From Gemmatimonadaceae bacterium (GTDB lineage Bacteria; Gemmatimonadota; Gemmatimonadetes; Gemmatimonadales; Gemmatimonadaceae), in NCBI GenBank assembly GCA_022843265.1, contig JALHNZ010000007.1, forward strand, positions 41,612 through 105,611: a DNA stretch of 64,000 nt. The letters are read 5' to 3'. Positions within the stretch are counted from its first letter, which is position 1. Every line of letters begins with the position of its first letter. Below, piece by piece: positions 7,945 to 61,753 of the stretch. The notes below the pieces were generated by a model. That model did no database searches. It saw only the letters and a program-made list of their open reading frames with translations, and was not told where the DNA came from. A program made the position numbers and the translations under genes.

Positions 7945-8862
7945 TTACACCGGAAACAGTCCATCTATCGAGAGATAACGCTCGCCCGTGTCGTAGCAGA
8001 ACGTCAGCACGCGCGAGCCGTCCGGCAAATCCGGCAACGTTTGCGCCACCGCCGCGAGCGACGCTCCAGATGAAATCCCGATAAAAATTCCTTCTTCGCG
8101 CGCGGCACGCTGTGCGAAGCGGATAGCATCTTCTTCTGACACCTGCACCGTACCATCAAGCACTGACGTGTGCAGGTTGCCCGGAATGAAGCCCGCGCCA
8201 ATGCCTTGAATACGGTGCGGCGACGGGGCACCACCGCTAATGACCGGTGACTTCATTGGTTCAACAGCCAGTGCGCGAAATCCAGGCCACGCTGCTTTGA
8301 GTGTGTCGGCGCATCCGGTAATGTGACCTCCGGTACCGACACCCGTGATCATGATGTCGAGACCAAGCGGGAAATCGTCCAGCACTTCACGCGCGGTCTT
8401 TTCGGCGTGCACGCGAATGTTTGCGGGGTTATCAAACTGCTGCGGCATCCACGCATTCGGCATTGAAGCGACCAACTCACCGGCCCGCGCAATGGCGCCT
8501 TTCATGCCGAGTTCCCGCGGAGTCAGTTCAAACGTCGCGCCATACGCCGCCATGATGCGACGTCGTTCAACAGACATCGACTCGGGCATGACAAGCACCA
8601 GCTTGTACCCCTTCACGGCGGCGACCATCGCGAGTCCGATGCCCGTGTTGCCAGACGTTGGTTCGACAATCACGCTGTCACGTGTGAGCGCGCCGGAGCG
8701 CTCCGCGTCTTCTATCATGGCCAGTGCAATGCGGTCCTTGATGCTGCCGCCGGGATTTGCACGCTCCAGTTTCATCCACACTTCCACACGTGAATCAAAC
8801 ATGCGCTGCAGCCGAACGTGTGGCGTGCGACCAATGGTATCAAGAATCGACTCGGCGCGCAT
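7945..8862 (-). CDS. cysK: Cysteine synthase A (O-acetylserine sulfhydrylase)
   Basis: This 305-residue PLP enzyme makes cysteine from O-acetylserine and sulfide. I use the ATG at 8862, which has a GGAGG ribosome site 5 bases upstream. The Schiff-base lysine is K42 in [11 protein letters not shown]. The substrate loop is [13 protein letters not shown] and the phosphate loop is [10 protein letters not shown]. The C-terminus ([10 protein letters not shown]) is typical of CysK. Serine acetyltransferase lies about 600 bp upstream on the same strand, separated by a divergent small gene. The two together give the complete serine-to-cysteine route. Confidence 0.95.
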
Positions 8863-22082: not shown

Positions 22083-23192
22083 ATGCACATGCTTCGTCGA
22101 TACGTCGCCTTCTCCGCATTCGCGCTGGCCGCGTGCTCAGGCGCGGACACCACGCCTGCTGCAACCGCAGACGTCACCTTGTCCGCGGCGCCAATTGCGA
22201 CCGACACGCTGACACCGGTCGTGATCACCGATACGCTGCCCGGTGATAGCGATGATCCGGCGCTCTGGCTGCATCCGTCGGACCCGTCACTGAGCCTGGT
22301 GCTCGGCACCGACAAGGGAGACACGACGGGTGGTGTGTACGTGTTCGATCTGGCGGGCAAGATCGATCGTACGCGCAGTGTGTCGCCGCTGCAGCGCATG
22401 AACAACGTGGACGTGGCGCAAGGCGCAGCCCTCGGCGGCGCCACGTTGGATATCGCGGTTGCAACGGAACGGAATCGACAGATGCTGCGCGTGTTTTCAT
22501 TGCCCGACATGCGTCCCATCGACAACGACGGCATTCTGCTGTTTGACGGCGACACCACGCGCGCCCCGATGGGCGTGAGTATCTATCGTCGACCAAGTGA
22601 CGGTGCAACATTTGCCATTGTTGGCGGCAAAGCCGGACCCACAGATGGCACCTACTTGTGGCAGTACCGACTGGAAGCCGACGCGAACGGTGTTGTGACC
22701 GGCACCAAAGTCCGTGCGTTCGGCGCCTACAGCGGTCGCAAGGAAATCGAAGCGATCACGGTGGACGATGCGCTCGGCTACGTGTACTACAGCGACGAAG
22801 GTGTGGGTGTGCGCAAGTATTACGCGGATCCCGATAGCAGCAACACAGAGCTCGCGCTCTTCGCCACCACAAACGTGATCGATGATCATGAAGGACTCGC
22901 CATTTTCGAACGTGATGCGAGCACCGGTTACATCGTGATGTCTGACCAGGGCGCGAACCGCATCCACATCTACACGCGCGAAGGGGTGCAGGGCGCGCCG
23001 CACCAGCATGAGCTTCTGGCCATCATCCCAACACGCGCCAGCGAGACGGACGGACTTGAAGTGACGTCGCAGGCTGTAGGCGCGGCGTTTCCTCAGGGAT
23101 TGCTGGTCATGATGTCCAACCGCGGCGCGTTTCACTACTACGATTGGCGTGATGTGCAGCGTGTGATCGACAAACTCCGCGGCGCGCCGTAA
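22083..23192 (+). CDS. Beta-propeller phytase lipoprotein
   Basis: A 369-residue enzyme expected to release phosphate from phytate (inositol hexakisphosphate) with calcium. The signal peptide ends in the lipobox LAAC with lipid-acceptor C18, so it is probably anchored outside the cytoplasm. Six-bladed phytase motifs are visible: GDSDDPALWLHPSDP, then LGTDKG, then EIEAITVDDALGYVYYSDE, then HEGLAIF and SDQGANRIHIY. These acidic positions bind calcium and substrate phosphates in the family. The coding sequence ends inside the first unit of a 13-bp tandem repeat. It would supply phosphate from soil phytate. Confidence 0.93.
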   Translation: MHMLRRYVAFSAFALAACSGADTTPAATADVTLSAAPIATDTLTPVVITDTLPGDSDDPALWLHPSDPSLSLVLGTDKGDTTGGVYVFDLAGKIDRTRSVSPLQRMNNVDVAQGAALGGATLDIAVATERNRQMLRVFSLPDMRPIDNDGILLFDGDTTRAPMGVSIYRRPSDGATFAIVGGKAGPTDGTYLWQYRLEADANGVVTGTKVRAFGAYSGRKEIEAITVDDALGYVYYSDEGVGVRKYYADPDSSNTELALFATTNVIDDHEGLAIFERDASTGYIVMSDQGANRIHIYTREGVQGAPHQHELLAIIPTRASETDGLEVTSQAVGAAFPQGLLVMMSNRGAFHYYDWRDVQRVIDKLRGAP

Positions 23193-23239
23193 CCGCGCGT
23201 CGTAACCGCGCGTCGTAACCGCGCGTCGTAACCGCGCGT
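23188..23239. repeat. Four perfect 13-bp tandem repeats
   Basis: CGTAACCGCGCGT occurs four times in a row without mismatch. The TAA of the first unit (23190-23192) is the phytase stop codon. The array ends 6 bp before the stop of the convergent SDR gene. It is a short tandem array, not a CRISPR: there are no spacers. Confidence 0.95.
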
Positions 23240-23245
23240 TGGTGG

Positions 23246-24814
23246 CTACCAGTCCGTTGGACGATAATCCTTCAGAAATTGGCCCCAGACATGTTCGCCG
23301 GTCAGCGCGCCTGAAATAATCGGATCAACAATACGCGCCGCGCCGTCTACAATGTCGAGTGGTGGATGAAACCGATGGTTTTCCACCTTTCGTGCGGCGA
23401 TTTCTGCCACATCTTCATCCGTCACCCAGCCGGTATCCACGCTGTTCATGTGGATACCGTCCTGCACGTAGTCTGCGGCAGACGTGCGCGTCATCATGTT
23501 CAGCGCCGCTTTCGCCATGTTCGTGTGGGGATGGCGCGTGGTTTTGTTATTGCGGTAAAACTGCCCTTCCATCGCGGACACGTTCACAATGTGCATATCC
23601 CGACACGGGTGACGCAGCATGAGCGGCTTGAGCCGCGCATTAATCAGGAACGGCGCCACCGCATTCACGAGCTGCACTTCGAGCAGCTCCACACTTGGCA
23701 CTTCGTGCATAAGCAGGCGCCACGAATTGCGGTCCCGCAGATCCACCTGTTGCAGATCCTGATCCAGCTGCCCGGCGGGAAATAGTGTCGGCTCCTGCAC
23801 GGCGTCTTCCGGCAACAGCACCAGCTGAGAGAGCGCCGCCGCGTGTGTCAGCCCAATGTGATCGCGCGAGATTGCCGTAGCGTTGCCCGGCGACGAGACC
23901 TTTCCCTGCGATGCCTGTGCAACGTCTCCGCTCCCGAGCGCGCGCGATTCGCGCCACTGCTCATAACGCCCCAGGACGCGCGTAGCTTTTGCCGACAGCG
24001 TGTGGAGCGACGCCGCTTCCGCGGACATCATGTGCGCATAAAACGCTGGCGGACGACGCACCGTCTGACAGGCGTTGTTGATGATGTAGTCGAGTCGTGA
24101 TTCGGTGCGCAGCAACTCACTGCAAAACGCTTCAACGCTCGGCGTGTGCCGAAGGTCGAGTCCGAACACTTCGAGTCGATCGCTCCATTCGTTGAAGTCG
24201 GGTTCGGCGGCGTATCGTTCCGCGGAATCGCGCGGAAAGCGTGTCGTGACCAGCAATCGCGCACCGCAGCGCAGCAGTTTGAGCCCCGCCTGATATCCGA
24301 TCTTGACGCGACCGCCGGTGAGTAGCGCGGTACGTCCACTCAAATCCGCGAGCTCGGTGCGCTTCGCGAAGTTGAAGTCAGCACACGCGCCACACATCTG
24401 ATCATAGAAGTGATGAATCGCGGTGAACTTGTCTTTGCAGATGTAACAGTGCTGCGGGACAATCGCCTCGCGCTCGCCGTTCACAATGTCGTCTGGCATG
24501 CGTTCCGACTCGCTCGCTCCCGACTCCAGCCGGTACACATTCGGTGTGGTAAACACCGGGCGGCGGCGCAACTCGCGGATTCCCGTGTCCTGCAGCACCT
24601 CGTCATCACGACGCGCTGCGGCCGCCTTTCGTTCACGCACCGTGGCCTTCACCATGGACCGACGTGCTTTCGCGTCGGGGTGAAAGACATGGGCGACGAG
24701 CTCAAGAAAGCGCAGCCGATCGGCCTCGGGCACGCCAACCAGTAACGATCGGTCCTCTACCACTCTCGCCAGTAACGCCGTCGCCTGCCGCAGTTCGTCA
24801 GAAAAGGAACTCAC
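23246..24814 (-). CDS. Unusual SDR-like oxidoreductase with a zinc-type Cys motif
   Basis: I start this 522-residue protein at GTG 24814, 37 bp after the cytochrome gene's stop. An N-terminal helical region (about 1-115) precedes a four-Cys motif, CYICKDK (C123, C126) and CGAC (C141, C144), which can bind zinc. The Rossmann domain begins at about 160 with LLTGGRVKIGYQAG and has YIINNACQ. The catalytic Ser is kept (S413 in NVSAMEGQFY) and Lys is kept (K435 in NMAKAAL), but the Tyr position four residues earlier is Thr (T431). Insertions near 270-370 enlarge it to twice a normal SDR. Substrate unknown. Confidence 0.82.
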   Translation of the reverse strand: MSSFSDELRQATALLARVVEDRSLLVGVPEADRLRFLELVAHVFHPDAKARRSMVKATVRERKAAAARRDDEVLQDTGIRELRRRPVFTTPNVYRLESGASESERMPDDIVNGEREAIVPQHCYICKDKFTAIHHFYDQMCGACADFNFAKRTELADLSGRTALLTGGRVKIGYQAGLKLLRCGARLLVTTRFPRDSAERYAAEPDFNEWSDRLEVFGLDLRHTPSVEAFCSELLRTESRLDYIINNACQTVRRPPAFYAHMMSAEAASLHTLSAKATRVLGRYEQWRESRALGSGDVAQASQGKVSSPGNATAISRDHIGLTHAAALSQLVLLPEDAVQEPTLFPAGQLDQDLQQVDLRDRNSWRLLMHEVPSVELLEVQLVNAVAPFLINARLKPLMLRHPCRDMHIVNVSAMEGQFYRNNKTTRHPHTNMAKAALNMMTRTSAADYVQDGIHMNSVDTGWVTDEDVAEIAARKVENHRFHPPLDIVDGAARIVDPIISGALTGEHVWGQFLKDYRPTDW

Positions 24815-46627: not shown

Positions 46628-49600
46628 ATGTCTGCCTTACCTCGTCTCTCCGCACGAGTGTTCGCCGCTACCGGCGTGCTCGCCTCCTTCGCCCTCTCTT
46701 CAGTTCAGGCACAAACCGCCTCCCGTGCCGCGCCAGCGACCGTTGCGGCCTCCGTTCCCGCATCGCTTTATGGAAGCCTGAGCTGGCGCAACGTCGGCCC
46801 GAACCGCGGTGGTCGTTCCATTGCCGTGACCGGTACAACGGCACGCCCACTCGAGTACTATTTCGGCGCGACCGGAGGTGGCGTCTGGAAGACCACCGAT
46901 GCGGGCAATACGTGGTCCGCAATTGGCGACGGACAGTTTGCGACATCGTCTGTTGGTGCGATCGCTCAGTGTGAAGCCAACCCCGACATCATCTGGGCTG
47001 GCATGGGCGAAGTGCAGTTCCGCGGCAACGTGATTCCCGGCGACGGTGTGTACAAGAGCACCGACGCTGGTCGCACCTGGAAGCACATGGGACTCGCGTC
47101 TAAAACCGGTCAGCAGATGATCGGCCGCATTCGCGTTGACCCGGCCAACTGCGAACGCCTGTTCGTTGCGGCGCTTGGTGATCCGTACGGACCGAGTGAT
47201 GAGCGCGGCATTTACCGCACCACAGACGGCGGAACATCGTGGCAGCGTGTGCTGCATCGCAACAACAAGACCGGTGCCGTGGATCTGTTTATTGATCCGT
47301 CTGACAGCAACACACTCTACGCCGGACTGTGGGAAGCGTATCGCAAGGAATGGATGTTGTCGTCCGGCGGTCCGGGCTCAGGACTGTTCAAGAGCACCGA
47401 CGGTGGCACCACGTGGACAGAACTCACGAAGAACGCTGGTTTGCCCAAGGGCACATGGGGCAAGGTTGGCGTGAGCGTGAGCGGTGCCGATCGCAATCGG
47501 GTGTACGCGATTGTGGAAGCCGATTCGGGCGGCGTGTTTGTCTCGAATGACGCCGGTGCCACGTTCACACAGGTGAGCGACAATCGCAATCTGCGTCAGC
47601 GCGCCTTCTATTACACGCGCATTGTTGCCGATCCGAAGGACAAGGAAACCGTGTACGTGCTGAACGTGCAGTTTCATCGTTCGCGCGACGGCGGCAAGAC
47701 GTGGCAAACGATTGGCGTGCCGCACGGCGACAACCATGATCTCTGGATCGCGAGCGACAATCCGAGCCGCATGATTCAGAGCAATGATGGTGGCGCAAAC
47801 GTGAGTTGGAACGCGGGCGCGTCGTGGACCGGACAAACATTCCCCACGGCACAGATGTACGATGTGCGTCTCACCAATCATTTCCCGTATCAGATCTGCG
47901 GCGGACAACAGGATAACAGCACCGCCTGCGTTCCCATGGATGGTGACGGCACGTACATGTATGCGCCCGGTGGCTGCGAAACCGGACCGGTCACACCGCA
48001 TCCGGGTGACGTGGACCTGTTCTACGCCGCGTGTTACGGTGGCTCCATGAGCTTCATGTCGCGCGTCACCGGACAGCAGCGCGCGGTGAATGTGTGGCCG
48101 GTGAACCCCATGGGTAACTCAGCCATCGACATCAAAGAACGATTCCAGTGGAATCATCCGATCACGGCCTCCACGCACGACACGAAAGTTGTGTACGTGG
48201 GTTCGCAGCACGTGTGGCGTTCCGACAATGGTGGGGAAAGCTGGAAGCGCATCAGCGGCGATCTCACGTACGCCGATCCAGCAACGCTTGGTCCGTCGGG
48301 CGGCGACATCACGCGCGACCAGACGAGCGTGGAGTACTACGGCACCGTGTGGCGCATTACGGAGTCGTCACACGCGAAAGGTGAACTCTGGGTTGGCAGC
48401 GACGATGGCAAGGTGCATGTCACGCGCAACGATGGTGCGTCATGGAGTGATGTCACGCCCATGGGATTGCCCAAGTTCAGCCGCATTCACGAAATCGATG
48501 TCTCGCCGCACACTCCGGGCAAGGCATACATCGCCGCCGTGCGCTATCGCTCGCAGGACATTCAGCCGTATGTGTACCGCACCAATGACTACGGTCGTTC
48601 GTGGACAAAGATCACGAACACGATTCCGGAAGGACATTATGTGCGTACGGTGCGCGAAGATCTCAAGCGCCCGGGCTTGTTGTACGCGGGCACTGAACGT
48701 GGTGTGCTCGTGAGTTTTGACGATGGTCTGTCGTGGCAGTCGCTGCAGCTGAACCTTCCCACGGTGCAGGTACCGGGTCTGGTGCTCAAGGGCGATGACG
48801 TCGTGATTGCAACACACGGTCGTTCTTACTACGTGCTCGACAACATCACACCGCTGCGTCAGGCGGCGGCGGAAGTGGCGTCGCGCGACGCATTTCTGTT
48901 CAAACCGGCGCCGACCGTGCGCACGCTGTCGCGCTCCGCTGAGTCATACTCACGTCGCAAGCAGTTCACGCCCGAGATCGACTATTACCTCGGCAAAGAC
49001 GCGGACACCGTGCGCATTGAGATTCTCGACGCGCAGAACCGCGTGATTCGTAGCTACGTTGGCTCGCCGCCACGCGCGGCGGCGGCCGGTGCGGCTCCCG
49101 CGGCTGGCGGTGGACGTGGTGGATTCGGTGGCGGCGGTGGACCCCGTGCCACGGCCGGCCAGCATCGCTTCCGTTGGGACATGCGCTATCCGGGACCGCG
49201 CGATTTCCCGGGGCTCATCATGTGGTCCGCCAATACACAGGGACCGCTGGCTCCTCCGGGCCGCTATTCAGCGCGTCTGACAGCGCACGGACAGACGTTC
49301 ACGGAATCGTTTGACATTGTGGCCGATCCGCGCTTGACCACGATCACGCAGGCCGACTTCGATGCGCAGTTCAAGCTGTCGTCACAAGTGGCGCAGCGAG
49401 TGGACGATGCCCATCGCGCCGTATTGCAGGTGCGTGATGTACGTGCCCAGGTTGATGATCGTCTGAGCAAGAACAGCGATGCATCGCTGCGTACGGAAGC
49501 CACGGCGTTCAAGACGAACACGGCGGCGGTGGAGGGTGAGATCTATCAGGTGCGCATGCAGGCATCACAGGATCCGCTCAACTATCCGATCAAACTGAAC

Positions 49601-49825
49601 AATCAGCTTGCGGCGCTTCGCGGTGTGATCGAAAGCTCGGATAACCGGCCCACGTCGCAGGCGCAGGAAGCGTTCACGGTGCTCGCAGGCGAGCTGGATA
49701 CGCAGCTCACGAAACTGCAGGCGCTGTTTGATAAGGATCTGGCCAAGTTGAACGAGAAACTGCGTTCACTCGGACTCGCGCCGATTGTCGTACCGGCGCT
49801 CACGGGGACGAGTGTGATTTTTTAG
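46628..49825 (+). CDS. Large secreted Asp-box (VPS10/sortilin-like) propeller protein
   Basis: A 1065-residue protein, ATG 46628, signal peptide ending SSVQAQ. At least ten Asp-box motifs (S/T-x-D-x-G-x-T-W type) are visible, such as KTTDAGNTW, KSTDAGRTW, RTTDGGTSW and KSTDGGTTW, building large beta-propellers up to about residue 750. A Gly-rich low-complexity linker (GGGRGGFGGGGG) near 830 leads to a beta-sandwich and a C-terminal helical region with LTKLQALFDKDLAKLNEKLR. These proteins are often annotated as glycosyl hydrolases, but no catalytic site is evident. A close relative lies at 55827-58865. Confidence 0.9.
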   Translation: MSALPRLSARVFAATGVLASFALSSVQAQTASRAAPATVAASVPASLYGSLSWRNVGPNRGGRSIAVTGTTARPLEYYFGATGGGVWKTTDAGNTWSAIGDGQFATSSVGAIAQCEANPDIIWAGMGEVQFRGNVIPGDGVYKSTDAGRTWKHMGLASKTGQQMIGRIRVDPANCERLFVAALGDPYGPSDERGIYRTTDGGTSWQRVLHRNNKTGAVDLFIDPSDSNTLYAGLWEAYRKEWMLSSGGPGSGLFKSTDGGTTWTELTKNAGLPKGTWGKVGVSVSGADRNRVYAIVEADSGGVFVSNDAGATFTQVSDNRNLRQRAFYYTRIVADPKDKETVYVLNVQFHRSRDGGKTWQTIGVPHGDNHDLWIASDNPSRMIQSNDGGANVSWNAGASWTGQTFPTAQMYDVRLTNHFPYQICGGQQDNSTACVPMDGDGTYMYAPGGCETGPVTPHPGDVDLFYAACYGGSMSFMSRVTGQQRAVNVWPVNPMGNSAIDIKERFQWNHPITASTHDTKVVYVGSQHVWRSDNGGESWKRISGDLTYADPATLGPSGGDITRDQTSVEYYGTVWRITESSHAKGELWVGSDDGKVHVTRNDGASWSDVTPMGLPKFSRIHEIDVSPHTPGKAYIAAVRYRSQDIQPYVYRTNDYGRSWTKITNTIPEGHYVRTVREDLKRPGLLYAGTERGVLVSFDDGLSWQSLQLNLPTVQVPGLVLKGDDVVIATHGRSYYVLDNITPLRQAAAEVASRDAFLFKPAPTVRTLSRSAESYSRRKQFTPEIDYYLGKDADTVRIEILDAQNRVIRSYVGSPPRAAAAGAAPAAGGGRGGFGGGGGPRATAGQHRFRWDMRYPGPRDFPGLIMWSANTQGPLAPPGRYSARLTAHGQTFTESFDIVADPRLTTITQADFDAQFKLSSQVAQRVDDAHRAVLQVRDVRAQVDDRLSKNSDASLRTEATAFKTNTAAVEGEIYQVRMQASQDPLNYPIKLNNQLAALRGVIESSDNRPTSQAQEAFTVLAGELDTQLTKLQALFDKDLAKLNEKLRSLGLAPIVVPALTGTSVIF

Positions 49826-49899: not shown

Positions 49900-50135
49900 G
49901 CAGTTCCTGATTCGGTCATTCGGCCCTGCAGCCGGAGCCCATGGCCATTTGGCTTTTTGGCCTCGCATTTTCGTCAGTCCGCACCGAGCACAAATGGGGA
50001 ATGATCATCCAGCCTGCGTTCGCCTATGGTCCGTGAAAGACTCGTGTTGGGTGCAACCTTTCGAAACGGCGAGGCCAAAAAGCCAAATGGCCATGGGCTC
50101 CGGCTGCAGGGCCGAATGACCGAATCAAAAACTGC
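49900..50135. repeat. Long inverted-repeat element, copy 1 (236 bp)
   Basis: Arms 49900-49973 and 50062-50135 (74 nt each) are reverse complements at 70 of 74 positions. The outer end is GCAGTTCCTGATTCGGTCAT and the middle of each arm carries GGAGCCCATGGCCATTTGGC. Inside the arms are shoulders GAGCAC (49986-49991) and GTGCAACC (50051-50058) around a 59-nt core. It lies between a plus-strand stop and a minus-strand stop (11 bp from the Uma2 gene). Related copies are at 51443 and 60762. No coding frame in it looks real. Confidence 0.95.
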
Positions 50136-50146
50136 CACCGTTTTCG

Positions 50147-50536
50147 CTAGCGATGAATCTCGGCAAAAAGCACCGGCAGCTCGAGCATGAGCGGAGCAAC
50201 TTCCGCGCGCGGCTGCCACATCAGCTGCTCGGCCAGCACCTCCGGCCGCGCGTCGTCTGGTCGCCACCGTTCGATGCACTGCGCATCCACGTCCACGATC
50301 CAGTACTCCGGGACGCCGTGCCGCTGATAGATCAGCCGTTTCCGGTGCCGATCGGCCCGTGCCGTCGATGGAGAAAGCACCTCCACCGCGAGCACTTCCA
50401 GCGCCATCTGATGCGACCATGAGGGCGCTGGCGTCACGAACAGCTCGCCATCGAGCACTTCGTAGCGATTGCCATCGGTCGGCAGTGCGATCGCGTCCGC
50501 TGCCGTCCATTCAGGTGATTGCGCGGGCATGGCCAT
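50147..50536 (-). CDS. Uma2-family nuclease-fold protein, internally shortened
   Basis: A 129-residue protein (ATG 50536; ATG 50530 also possible) against about 180-200 for normal Uma2 proteins. The start LPTDGNRYEVLDGELFVTPA and the end part VEVLSPSTARADRHRKRLIY, then GVPEYWIVDVD, are textbook Uma2. The intervening 40-50 residues are missing: SHQMAL runs straight into EVLAVEVLSPST. That segment normally carries the QPD active-site aspartate, so nuclease activity is doubtful. The reading frame is intact, so this is an in-frame deletion rather than a frameshift. Confidence 0.85.
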   Translation of the reverse strand: MAMPAQSPEWTAADAIALPTDGNRYEVLDGELFVTPAPSWSHQMALEVLAVEVLSPSTARADRHRKRLIYQRHGVPEYWIVDVDAQCIERWRPDDARPEVLAEQLMWQPRAEVAPLMLELPVLFAEIHR

Positions 50537-50752: not shown

Positions 50753-51424
50753 ATGTTCAAGCTTCCCGCCCTCGTCTTCGCCCTCGCGCTCACCGCATGC
50801 GGAGACGCCAAAGTTGCAGAGCCCACGTTCGACATCCCCGACACGGCCGCGATGGTCCGCGCGGCCGAACAGGCGGGGATGACGCGCGTAACGGTGCCAG
50901 ATCCTGATCCCGGCATTCCCGCGTACGCCCGCGCCTGGCCTGGGCTCAATCAGTTCTTCCACGATGGTGAGTGGCTCGCGATTCCGTTCTACCGCGCGCC
51001 GAGTGCGATTCCGGCCAACTTCAACATGCTGGAGTTCTTTCACTTTCCGGGCCCCGGCGGCCCCGGTGCATTCGCTGCACCAACGCTCCTAAAGGGATTT
51101 TTTCTGATTGAACCCAACGCGCAGCTCGGAACCTTCCCGTTGATTTCCGTGACGACGGGAGACGCGATTCCCGTTTGGTTCGTACGCTGGTCTGATTATC
51201 AGGCGGCGATGGCAGACAATGTCGTGACGATCGGTGAGATCCAAGCCATGCAGCCGCTACGTGGCATTGCCAACAAATTCAACGAGACACTGAAGCCGCG
51301 TGTGGATGATCATCTCGTGGTGATTACTGCGGCCGGGACATTGGAGGATGGCCGCAAGTTCGATTTTCATGTTACGCACATTGGCGACAGCATTCGCAGC
51401 ATTCGGATTGCGTTCAAGCGGTAG
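50753..51424 (+). CDS. Hypothetical lipoprotein
   Basis: A 223-residue protein from ATG 50753 (GGAG upstream) with lipobox LTAC. The mature part is a single soluble domain (PGLNQFFHDGEWLAIPFYR; SVTTGDAIPVWFVRWSDYQ) ending in a beta-rich segment (DFHVTHIGDSIRSIRIAF). No family is recognised. A 216-bp divergent gap separates it from the Uma2 gene. The long inverted repeat copy 2 begins 18 bp after its stop. Confidence 0.75.
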   Translation: MFKLPALVFALALTACGDAKVAEPTFDIPDTAAMVRAAEQAGMTRVTVPDPDPGIPAYARAWPGLNQFFHDGEWLAIPFYRAPSAIPANFNMLEFFHFPGPGGPGAFAAPTLLKGFFLIEPNAQLGTFPLISVTTGDAIPVWFVRWSDYQAAMADNVVTIGEIQAMQPLRGIANKFNETLKPRVDDHLVVITAAGTLEDGRKFDFHVTHIGDSIRSIRIAFKR

Positions 51425-51442: not shown

Positions 51443-51679
51443 GCAGTTGTCGTTGCCGTTCGTGATTCGTCCATTCGGCTCAGGAGCCCACGGCCATTTG
51501 GCCTTTCGGCAAATCATTTTCGTACGGCGGCCCAGAGCACTGAAGCACGCGCGTTTCCAGGCTCAGGCGAGGAGCACTGCTGATGGTGTGTTCCGTGCGA
51601 CCTTTCGAAACGCGTTTGCCGAAAGGCCAAATGGCCGTGAGCTCCTGGGCCGAATGGACGAATCAGGAACTGCAACTGC
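51443..51679. repeat. Long inverted-repeat element, copy 2 (237 bp)
   Basis: Left arm 51443-51522, right arm 51606-51679. From GATTCGTCCATTCGGC inwards 53 of 59 positions pair; the outer end of the left arm has diverged. Shoulders are GAGCAC (51535-51540) and GTGCGACC (51595-51602) around a 54-nt core, in the same orientation as copy 1. It fills almost the whole gap between a plus-strand stop (18 bp away) and a minus-strand stop (16 bp away). Confidence 0.93.
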
Positions 51680-60761: not shown

Positions 60762-60995
60762 GCAGTTCCTGATTCGATCATTCGGCCCTTCAGCCGGAGC
60801 CCACGGCCATTTGGCCATTCGGCCTCACCGTTTCGGAAGGTCGCACCCGAATCATATGATCGAGGAGCATTTTCTGCGCCCGAGGAGAGAACAACCTGCG
60901 TCGGTGCTCCGTGCCGCTGTACGAAAACGGGAGGCCGAATGGCCAAATGGCCGTGGGCTCCGGCTGAAGGGCCGAATGACCGAATCAGGAACTGC
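60762..60995. repeat. Long inverted-repeat element, copy 3 (234 bp)
   Basis: Arms 60762-60835 and 60922-60995 (74 nt each) pair at 70 of 74 positions. The shoulders appear in reverse order, GGTCGCAC (60839-60846) then GTGCTC (60904-60909), so this copy is inverted relative to copies 1 and 2; the core is 57 nt. It lies 9 bp after a plus-strand stop and 11 bp before a minus-strand stop. Several arm positions differ from copy 1 but are changed in both arms. Confidence 0.95.
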
Positions 60996-61006: not shown

Positions 61007-61753
61007 CTATTTCGTCAACGGGAGTCCACGCGCCCCATCCCGTGATACATGCGCGACCCGTCGCAATCGCACCGAGTCGGCCGCACCAACATACGCTTCC
61101 ACCACGCCTTCACTCTCCATTGCCCGCGTGAGCTGCGATAGCGACCCGCAGACATACCGGTTGCACAGATTCGACCGCATTGCGCGTGGTAATGCACAGC
61201 CGCCGCGTGTGTGGTACACACACGACTCGCGGTAGTGCTGCGCCGGGAGATACGAGGCATACAGTGCCTCGAGCGAATCACGTGTGGTGGCGATTCCGTC
61301 TTGCTCGAGCTGCGCCCGCACGCGCGTAAGACTATCCACCTGCAGGAACGCGTGCGTTCCGCCGGAGTTGCAACACTCGCCCATGCACGTGGCGCAACTG
61401 GCGCCGAGTATGTCTGAAAGGTGTTCGACCTGCGCCCCGACCGCATTGGGCGATTGTTCGGGGAGCGCGGCGCGCGGTGTTCCGGCATCGGAGCGCGCGG
61501 CGTGTTCGGCTTCGCTCATTGGTGCGCCGTTGTCTCGCAGCGGTTGTGCAAACGTCTCTTCCAGCACGCCGCGCAACTTGTCGAGAAACGCCGTGCGCGA
61601 TGCTTCGGGGAGTGCTGTGATACGACGCGTATTGGCCGGTAGCAGAATGACAGGCAGTGCGCGCCCGTCCGCAGCCGCCAGTTCGTGCGTGTGCTGCACA
61701 AATCGCACGTTGCGAGCGCGCTGCGCCGCAATCGGACCGTCGCGTGGTGGCAT
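61007..61753 (-). CDS. Cys-rich metal-binding protein (YkgJ-like)
   Basis: A 248-residue protein. Three Cys clusters occur after residue 110: ASCATCMGECCNSGG, then ESCVYHTRGGCALP, and SNLCNRYVCGSL. This CxxCxxxCC start with later Cys pairs resembles YkgJ-type zinc or iron binding domains (also called Fe-S-like). The first 100 residues are helical and carry no signal peptide. The true start could be further inside, as no ribosome site precedes ATG 61753. Function unknown. Confidence 0.78.
   Translation of the reverse strand: MPPRDGPIAAQRARNVRFVQHTHELAAADGRALPVILLPANTRRITALPEASRTAFLDKLRGVLEETFAQPLRDNGAPMSEAEHAARSDAGTPRAALPEQSPNAVGAQVEHLSDILGASCATCMGECCNSGGTHAFLQVDSLTRVRAQLEQDGIATTRDSLEALYASYLPAQHYRESCVYHTRGGCALPRAMRSNLCNRYVCGSLSQLTRAMESEGVVEAYVGAADSVRLRRVAHVSRDGARGLPLTK

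Follow-up and report, generated by a model that had tools for sequence, protein, structure and literature searches.

Long palindromic elements dispersed in a Gemmatimonadaceae genome and their proposed mobilization by an S23 protein

Three long inverted repeats in the window (the whole 64-kb stretch of DNA that was analyzed) belong to a dispersed family of palindromic elements, two copies of which flank an S23 gene (PF05635) elsewhere in the same genome. We judge the chance slightly better than even that the window repeats are ORF-less copies of this element, likely dispersed in trans by S23 as a mobile element; the mobilizing role of S23 is one that we infer. The interpretation in the preliminary description, that of a maintained fold, was partly supported: the main point lies outside the window, in a family that is tied to the S23 gene and looks mobile.

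The hairpin copies in the window and the genes adjoining copies 1 and 2 were as follows.

46658..49825, plus strand: Sortilin-Vps10 gene, left neighbor of copy 1 (Pfam E 7e-30)
49900..50135, minus strand: copy 1, full hairpin element; arms 49900-49973 and 50062-50135, 70/74 paired
50147..50536, minus strand: Uma2 (PF05685) gene piece between copies 1 and 2, a probable passenger (Pfam E 3.5e-19)
50753..51424, plus strand: hypothetical gene between copies 1 and 2, no Pfam match
51455..51673, minus strand: copy 2, full hairpin element; arms 51455-51522 and 51606-51673, 60/68 paired
60762..60995, plus strand: copy 3, full hairpin element; arms 60762-60835 and 60922-60995, 70/74 paired

The strand of copy 1 was assigned by comparison with the family; the genes around it are convergent, with stop codons 75 and 12 bp away. 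The best stretch of the Uma2 piece covers profile positions 98-153 of 172. Recomputation gave the same pairing, 70 of 74, that had been claimed earlier for copies 1 and 3. Copy 2 does still pair, as had been stated, at 51455-51673, but the limits first given for it, 51443-51679, pair at only 26 of 74 positions. Stop codons stand 19 and 17 bp from those outer limits, and in the family alignment a variable block of about 7 bases is missing from both arms of this copy. Copy 3 ends 12 bp from the stop of a minus-strand gene (61007-61753). It was the sole copy folded, with a minimum free energy of −183 kcal/mol on either strand and z scores of −20.4 and −19.1. A 420-base scan of the window gave copies 1-3 and no other inverted repeat in which 30 or more bases pair. 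The family had not been recognized in the preliminary description, and the window gave no Rfam matches at the gathering threshold. At 23182-23246 of the window, 13-base units GCGCGTCGTAACC stand in tandem.

The source genome (G000; 4.63 Mb in 211 contigs, 95% complete) was compared with four congeners (G001-G004), which makes five genomes in the genus. G000 contained 22 complete or nearly complete copies, of which one is truncated at a contig start, as well as four copies with reversed arms and three contig-end pieces. A lack of further copies had been named at the outset as a finding that would speak against the family; at least 26 were present, a figure that takes in the full and reversed-order copies only, because the piece at the start of contig C130 repeats the copy at the end of C2 and the two are probably one. 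Since this nearly identical hairpin copy stands at both contig ends (L036 and L041), the contigs probably adjoin and the assembly was broken at the palindrome. Identity to copy 3 was about 69-81%, using each copy's better strand; with the copies roughly 20-30% diverged, a recent burst is not visible.

The element is about 230 bp long and its loop is variable. The arms consist of constant blocks (GATTCGG, GGCCATTTGGCC) that alternate with variable blocks. The copies with reversed order run from the 3′ arm through a short spacer, or none, to the 5′ arm, with the loop halves outside.

L034:6936-7132: reversed-order copy
L040:3148-3347: reversed-order copy
L042:3490-3678: reversed-order copy
L026:6720-6824: reversed-order copy

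A second hairpin type, with arms of CGCAGAG-like units, was seen in G000 at L022:15092-15265 and is related at 63% to the G003 hairpins located after lon. The element was without a match in phage and plasmid DNA, and an exact pattern search of 84,980 species genomes and IMG/VR, where records of G000 may be excluded, gave no match. A DNA search of 40 relatives at E 0.001 found nothing; this absence reflects a sensitivity limit, because the hairpin family of G003 was missed although local BLAST links it to that of G000 at 64% (E 3e-7).

All 29 places were intergenic (less than 30 bases of overlap with called genes) in sampled DNA that was 86.7% coding, the genes being called with our own script, by which small genes such as S23 were missed. 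Among the 22 places with both neighbors called, 10 had a convergent-gene setting, as against 44 of 230 neighboring pairs (binomial tail 0.004), and the distance to the adjacent stop codon was 31 bp or less in 19 of 36 cases. Pfam identified the neighbors as ordinary genes, e.g., lon, clpP, clpX, FTHFS, lemA and coaE, and the genes found between close copies were PF05635, Uma2 or hypothetical.

Congeners were used to judge whether copies had been inserted. The L031 copy was absent at the orthologous gene pair, which in the alignment is spaced at about 24 bases in G004 and 63 in G001. The hairpin-Uma2-hairpin arrangement of L022, between the DHDPS and T2SSE genes, was absent from a short gap in G001, G002 and G004. 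By this comparison the hairpins at both sites are insertions. Target-site duplication was not detected, the mean shared word being 3.80 (20 of the 22 copies) versus 4.09 ± 0.19 for shuffled pairings. Hairpins of other sequence were present in G004 after the ortholog of the Sortilin-Vps10 gene, in G003 after lon and beside T2SSE, and in G002 at the L031 site; such unrelated hairpins in orthologous gaps suggest recurrent use of the same gaps. The G004 and G002 sites were located by scan and the two in G003 by reading and folding, and the P of 2.8e-4 for the four mixes both and is unreliable.

The only PF05635 match in G000 lies between two hairpin copies.

L023:7788-8171: S23 ORF (PF05635, 23S rRNA intervening-sequence protein; E 2.6e-28, 98.8 bits, cut-off 33.8)

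This ORF is located between clpX and clpP and is flanked by hairpin copies at L023:7482-7715 and 8163-8390, the second of which overlaps, at its end, the final codons and stop of the ORF. A profile of five S23 proteins matched PDB 2gsc at 6.9e-15. Seven PF05635 genes were found in four of the five genomes of the genus; five of them have a hairpin of 25 or more paired bases on either side. The S23 loci L166 and L167 were without hairpins by the 25-base test, and inverted flanks were strong at L167. At L163 the ORF stands in the loop of terminal inverted repeats (inverted score 117, shuffle maximum 12). The S23 proteins of G000 and G003 share 72% identity, and their hairpins are those related at 64%. 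For G003 and G004, solo relatives of the S23-flanking hairpins were present in the sequence parts covered; none was found in the part covered for G002. In G023, which belongs to another genus of the same family, one S23 gene stands between two hairpin copies, and a further eight copies lack any S23 match within 1.5 kb; only one of its 11 PF05635 matches is linked to this hairpin family.

Uma2 genes, like S23, adjoin some of the hairpins. Forty-eight Uma2 matches in the genus yielded 30 with loci, 28 of them long enough for use, and hairpins stood on both sides at one of these 28. Adding the L022 gene, which is outside the sample, gives 2/29, versus 5/7 for S23 (Fisher p 0.001). Uma2 was set aside as the driver on these counts. 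At L092:12836-14787 (G004), a hairpin follows each of two adjacent Uma2 genes, and both hairpins belong to the family found around S23 in that genome. Y1 transposase (PF01797, Y1_Tnp) and reverse transcriptase (PF00078, RVT_1) each gave 0 matches in G000, while 5 and 3 of 14 control genomes, respectively, were positive.

PF05635 was present at E 1e-8 in 130 of 249 Gemmatimonadota genomes. A discovery set of 52 S23 loci was assembled from the phylum (30), GTDB (15) and the genus (7), several of the GTDB loci being from other phyla (Acidobacteriales, Aquimarina, Thermoflexus, Dojkabacteria, Angelobacter). Fifty had usable flanks, L199 and L207 being left out because their flanks were short; L238, a partial PF05635 match, was excluded from later counts. 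Flanks were scored as inverted when the inverted repeat between upstream and downstream DNA beat 20 shuffles and the direct orientation. By this test 37 of the 50 loci had inverted flanks and 13 failed. Of 102 flanks, 43 contained tandem runs, the period being 7 in 36 of them, as against 2/227, 7/600 and 5/227 control pieces and 2/59 Uma2 flanks of the genus.

A fresh set of 40 Gemmatimonadota loci, one per genome, was hand-picked among the matches listed and shared no genome with the first 30 loci; L292 repeats L218 and was left out, which leaves 39. Inverted flanks were present at 29 of these versus 5 of 73 shifted positions (p 1.7e-13), and 10 loci failed. Tandem arrays were found in 31/78 flanks versus 15/322 distal pieces, with periods of 7 (9 flanks), 8 (13), 9 (6), 10 (2) and 12 (1). 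A plasmid set of 14 S23 loci (13 cyanobacterial, one Azospirillum) had inverted flanks at eight, six failing, and tandem arrays in 14 of 28 flanks, all of period 7. The S23 loci are not all independent because some share arms or neighbors (L189/L190, L221/L222, L246/L249).

Long hairpins on both sides of S23 were rare outside the genus, at 1 of 30 returned phylum loci (L195) and 0 of 16 GTDB loci (20, less four that were congener loci again). The general form is therefore the weaker one of inverted flanks and short arrays. The long palindromes of the genus themselves fail the tandem-array test, those of G000 with runs of 9 (best period 8) and 6 against a threshold of 14, so that they are tied to the short-array S23 loci by gene and inverted layout only.

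Some of these loci had further features. Several plasmid S23 genes stand within runs of cas or conjugation genes; at L240, L241 and L248, on cyanobacterial plasmids, S23 has cas genes on either side (Cas6/Cas4, Cas10/Cmr3). The occurrence of PF05635 at cas loci was already recorded in PMC3936711. In the downstream flank of L235 a long period-4 tandem run adjoins the S23 gene.

Covariation between the arms was tested statistically, as had been suggested at the outset, over 21 copies and 62 pairs. Paired cells made up 96.5% of 1296. The three changes first quoted as occurring in both arms together are present in the sequence, and 18 of the 62 pairs were changed on both sides (47 two-sided cells in the 21 copies); none of 500 shuffles, which ignore relatedness, was as high or reached any of five covariation measures. 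Structures slid by 1-3 columns gave 3-5 two-sided pairs versus 18 for the real one, which was derived from the same alignment and is favored by this over the slid versions. For the eight most variable pairs, 130 of 164 cells were Watson-Crick, and 5000 whole-arm permutations gave at most 114/164. A copy's own 3′ arm was the best or equal-best partner in 13/21 copies; in 8/21 another arm pairs better.

The 64 non-Watson-Crick cells comprised 19 G.T, 25 A.C and 20 others. Since the mismatch types are nearly even, they give no sign of the G-U preference expected from the fold of a single RNA strand. The pattern mildly favors a cause at the level of DNA; two-sided transcription could mask a G-U preference. 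The claim in the preliminary description that the fold is maintained is upheld by the covariation. Selection and arm-to-arm copying were both offered there as causes, and the mismatch types lean mildly to a DNA-level one.

By analogy, the best reading is that the hairpin-S23 system works like REPIN-RAYT. The likeness to the system described in passages of PMC3116915 lies in dispersed intergenic hairpin doublets with a candidate mobilizer gene nearby in the genome, and paired inverted-repeat arms at 29 of 29 intergenic places are shared. The elements here differ in being about 230 bp long with arms of about 75 bases or more, and in that the gene is PF05635 rather than a Y1 transposase, of which G000 has no match. 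Intervening sequences (IVSs) of rRNA genes with an S23p ORF, e.g., that of Coxiella, also hold the ORF in a loop that terminal inverted repeats close, according to the relevant parts of PMC4990558, which place heptamer repeats (GACAGAT) next to the ORF, describe a Xanthomonas S23 protein as a pentamer, and discuss earlier proposals in which IVSs are remnants of transposition, or mobile elements with an ORF that serves mobility. Unlike these, S23 here lies between protein genes (clpX/clpP), outside an rRNA gene, and is flanked by complete palindromes, with many ORF-less copies in the genome.

The heptameric repeats of Xanthomonas and Nostoc (PMC4692102) are likewise 7-base arrays in intergenic DNA, and in one Xanthomonas genome 70 cases were described of two heptameric sites in close convergent (inverted) orientation. 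They differ in that S23 is not named with them, '23S' and 'helix bundle' each occurring 0 times in the main text of that source. It is possible, as a prediction, that these repeats are tied to XCC0516, the gene of PDB 2gsc, which would be expected close to inverted GGGAATC arrays. Avd of diversity-generating retroelements resembles PF05635 and is essential to retrohoming, according to sections of PMC10053308. Such a retroelement differs from the present system in that G000 has no reverse transcriptase match. A MITE of a DDE transposon differs in that the hairpins here lack a target-site duplication. Integron attC sites are presumably set aside by length.

Among the other explanations, the one in which S23 is a mere passenger deserves most attention. 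Some other, unrecognized enzyme would then move the hairpins, or recombination hot spots would generate them, and S23, like Uma2, would survive where hairpins already exist. Uma2 genes do stand between hairpin pairs in the window and at L022, the unrelated hairpins in orthologous congener gaps suggest hot spots, and S23 is not known to have catalytic activity. This account has to meet the excess of both-sided hairpins at S23 over Uma2 loci of the genus (5/7 vs 2/29) and the inverted flanks of S23 loci elsewhere, which Uma2 loci of the genus rarely have (1/28; tandem arrays in 2/59 flanks); we regard it as rather unlikely. It is improbable, in our estimate, that the arms were matched purely by quasi-palindrome templated correction in replication, with neither a function nor an active mobilizer. 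The even mismatch types and the block missing together from both arms of copy 2 are what such correction would give, and it can be compatible with dispersal by S23. Taken as the whole cause, it leaves the dispersal, the S23 link and the constant blocks between variable positions unexplained.

A functional RNA or terminator at gene 3′ ends, kept by selection on the folded transcript, would account for the strong covariation and for the placement (29/29 intergenic, 10/22 convergent against a background of 44/230, 19/36 stop distances of 31 bp or less). Selection on RNA is opposed by the lack of a G-U excess (19 G.T, 25 A.C, 20 other), by congener orthologous gaps that are without the element or hold other sequences, and by stems followed by T-runs, separate from the element, that are readable beside several copies, although the scanner did not flag the one next to copy 1; we consider this role decidedly improbable. 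A family of REPINs with a RAYT as its mover, or of MITEs derived from an ordinary DDE transposon, would also appear as dispersed inverted-repeat doublets adjoining one candidate mobilizer gene. With Y1_Tnp at 0 matches in G000 against 5/14 positive control genomes, no target-site duplication found, and PF05635 instead of a transposase between the copies, both are highly improbable, and the RAYT reading is largely refuted unless its gene is in the part of the genome, roughly 5%, that the assembly lacks.

Under dispersal by S23, the protein, a four-helix bundle related to Avd, would bind the hairpin arms, and the single-stranded hairpin may be the form that is copied. Copying of one arm from the other, and not selection on RNA, would keep the arms complementary. 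The S23-bearing hairpin is predicted to be the autonomous member and the solo hairpins non-autonomous, as REPINs are to RAYT genes. The reversed-order copies fit S23-bearing hairpins minus the gene, because the inner arms of L023 stand in that order around S23.

S23 proteins were first known from rRNA intervening sequences, and to our knowledge no catalytic activity has been assigned to them. They are still described as functionally uncharacterized (PMC11270868), and intergenic heptameric repeats are over-represented in many bacteria with little literature devoted to them (PMC4692102). A published link between S23 and repeats was not found among the matches listed in a search that left subscription papers and preprints largely outside. 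More tentatively, and at somewhat less than an even chance, we propose that S23/IVP four-helix-bundle proteins mobilize hairpin elements of a class that is both new and widespread. Every such protein would copy its own arm sequence, build inverted arrays of 7-10-base units or long palindromes, and seed ORF-less hairpins just past stop codons; one system would then have given rise to these hairpins, to rRNA IVSs and to the heptameric repeats of cyanobacteria and Xanthomonas. The link would give both partners a testable job, the protein as mobilizer and the repeats as its arms, and, if true, would add a hairpin-mobilizing protein outside the recognized transposases.
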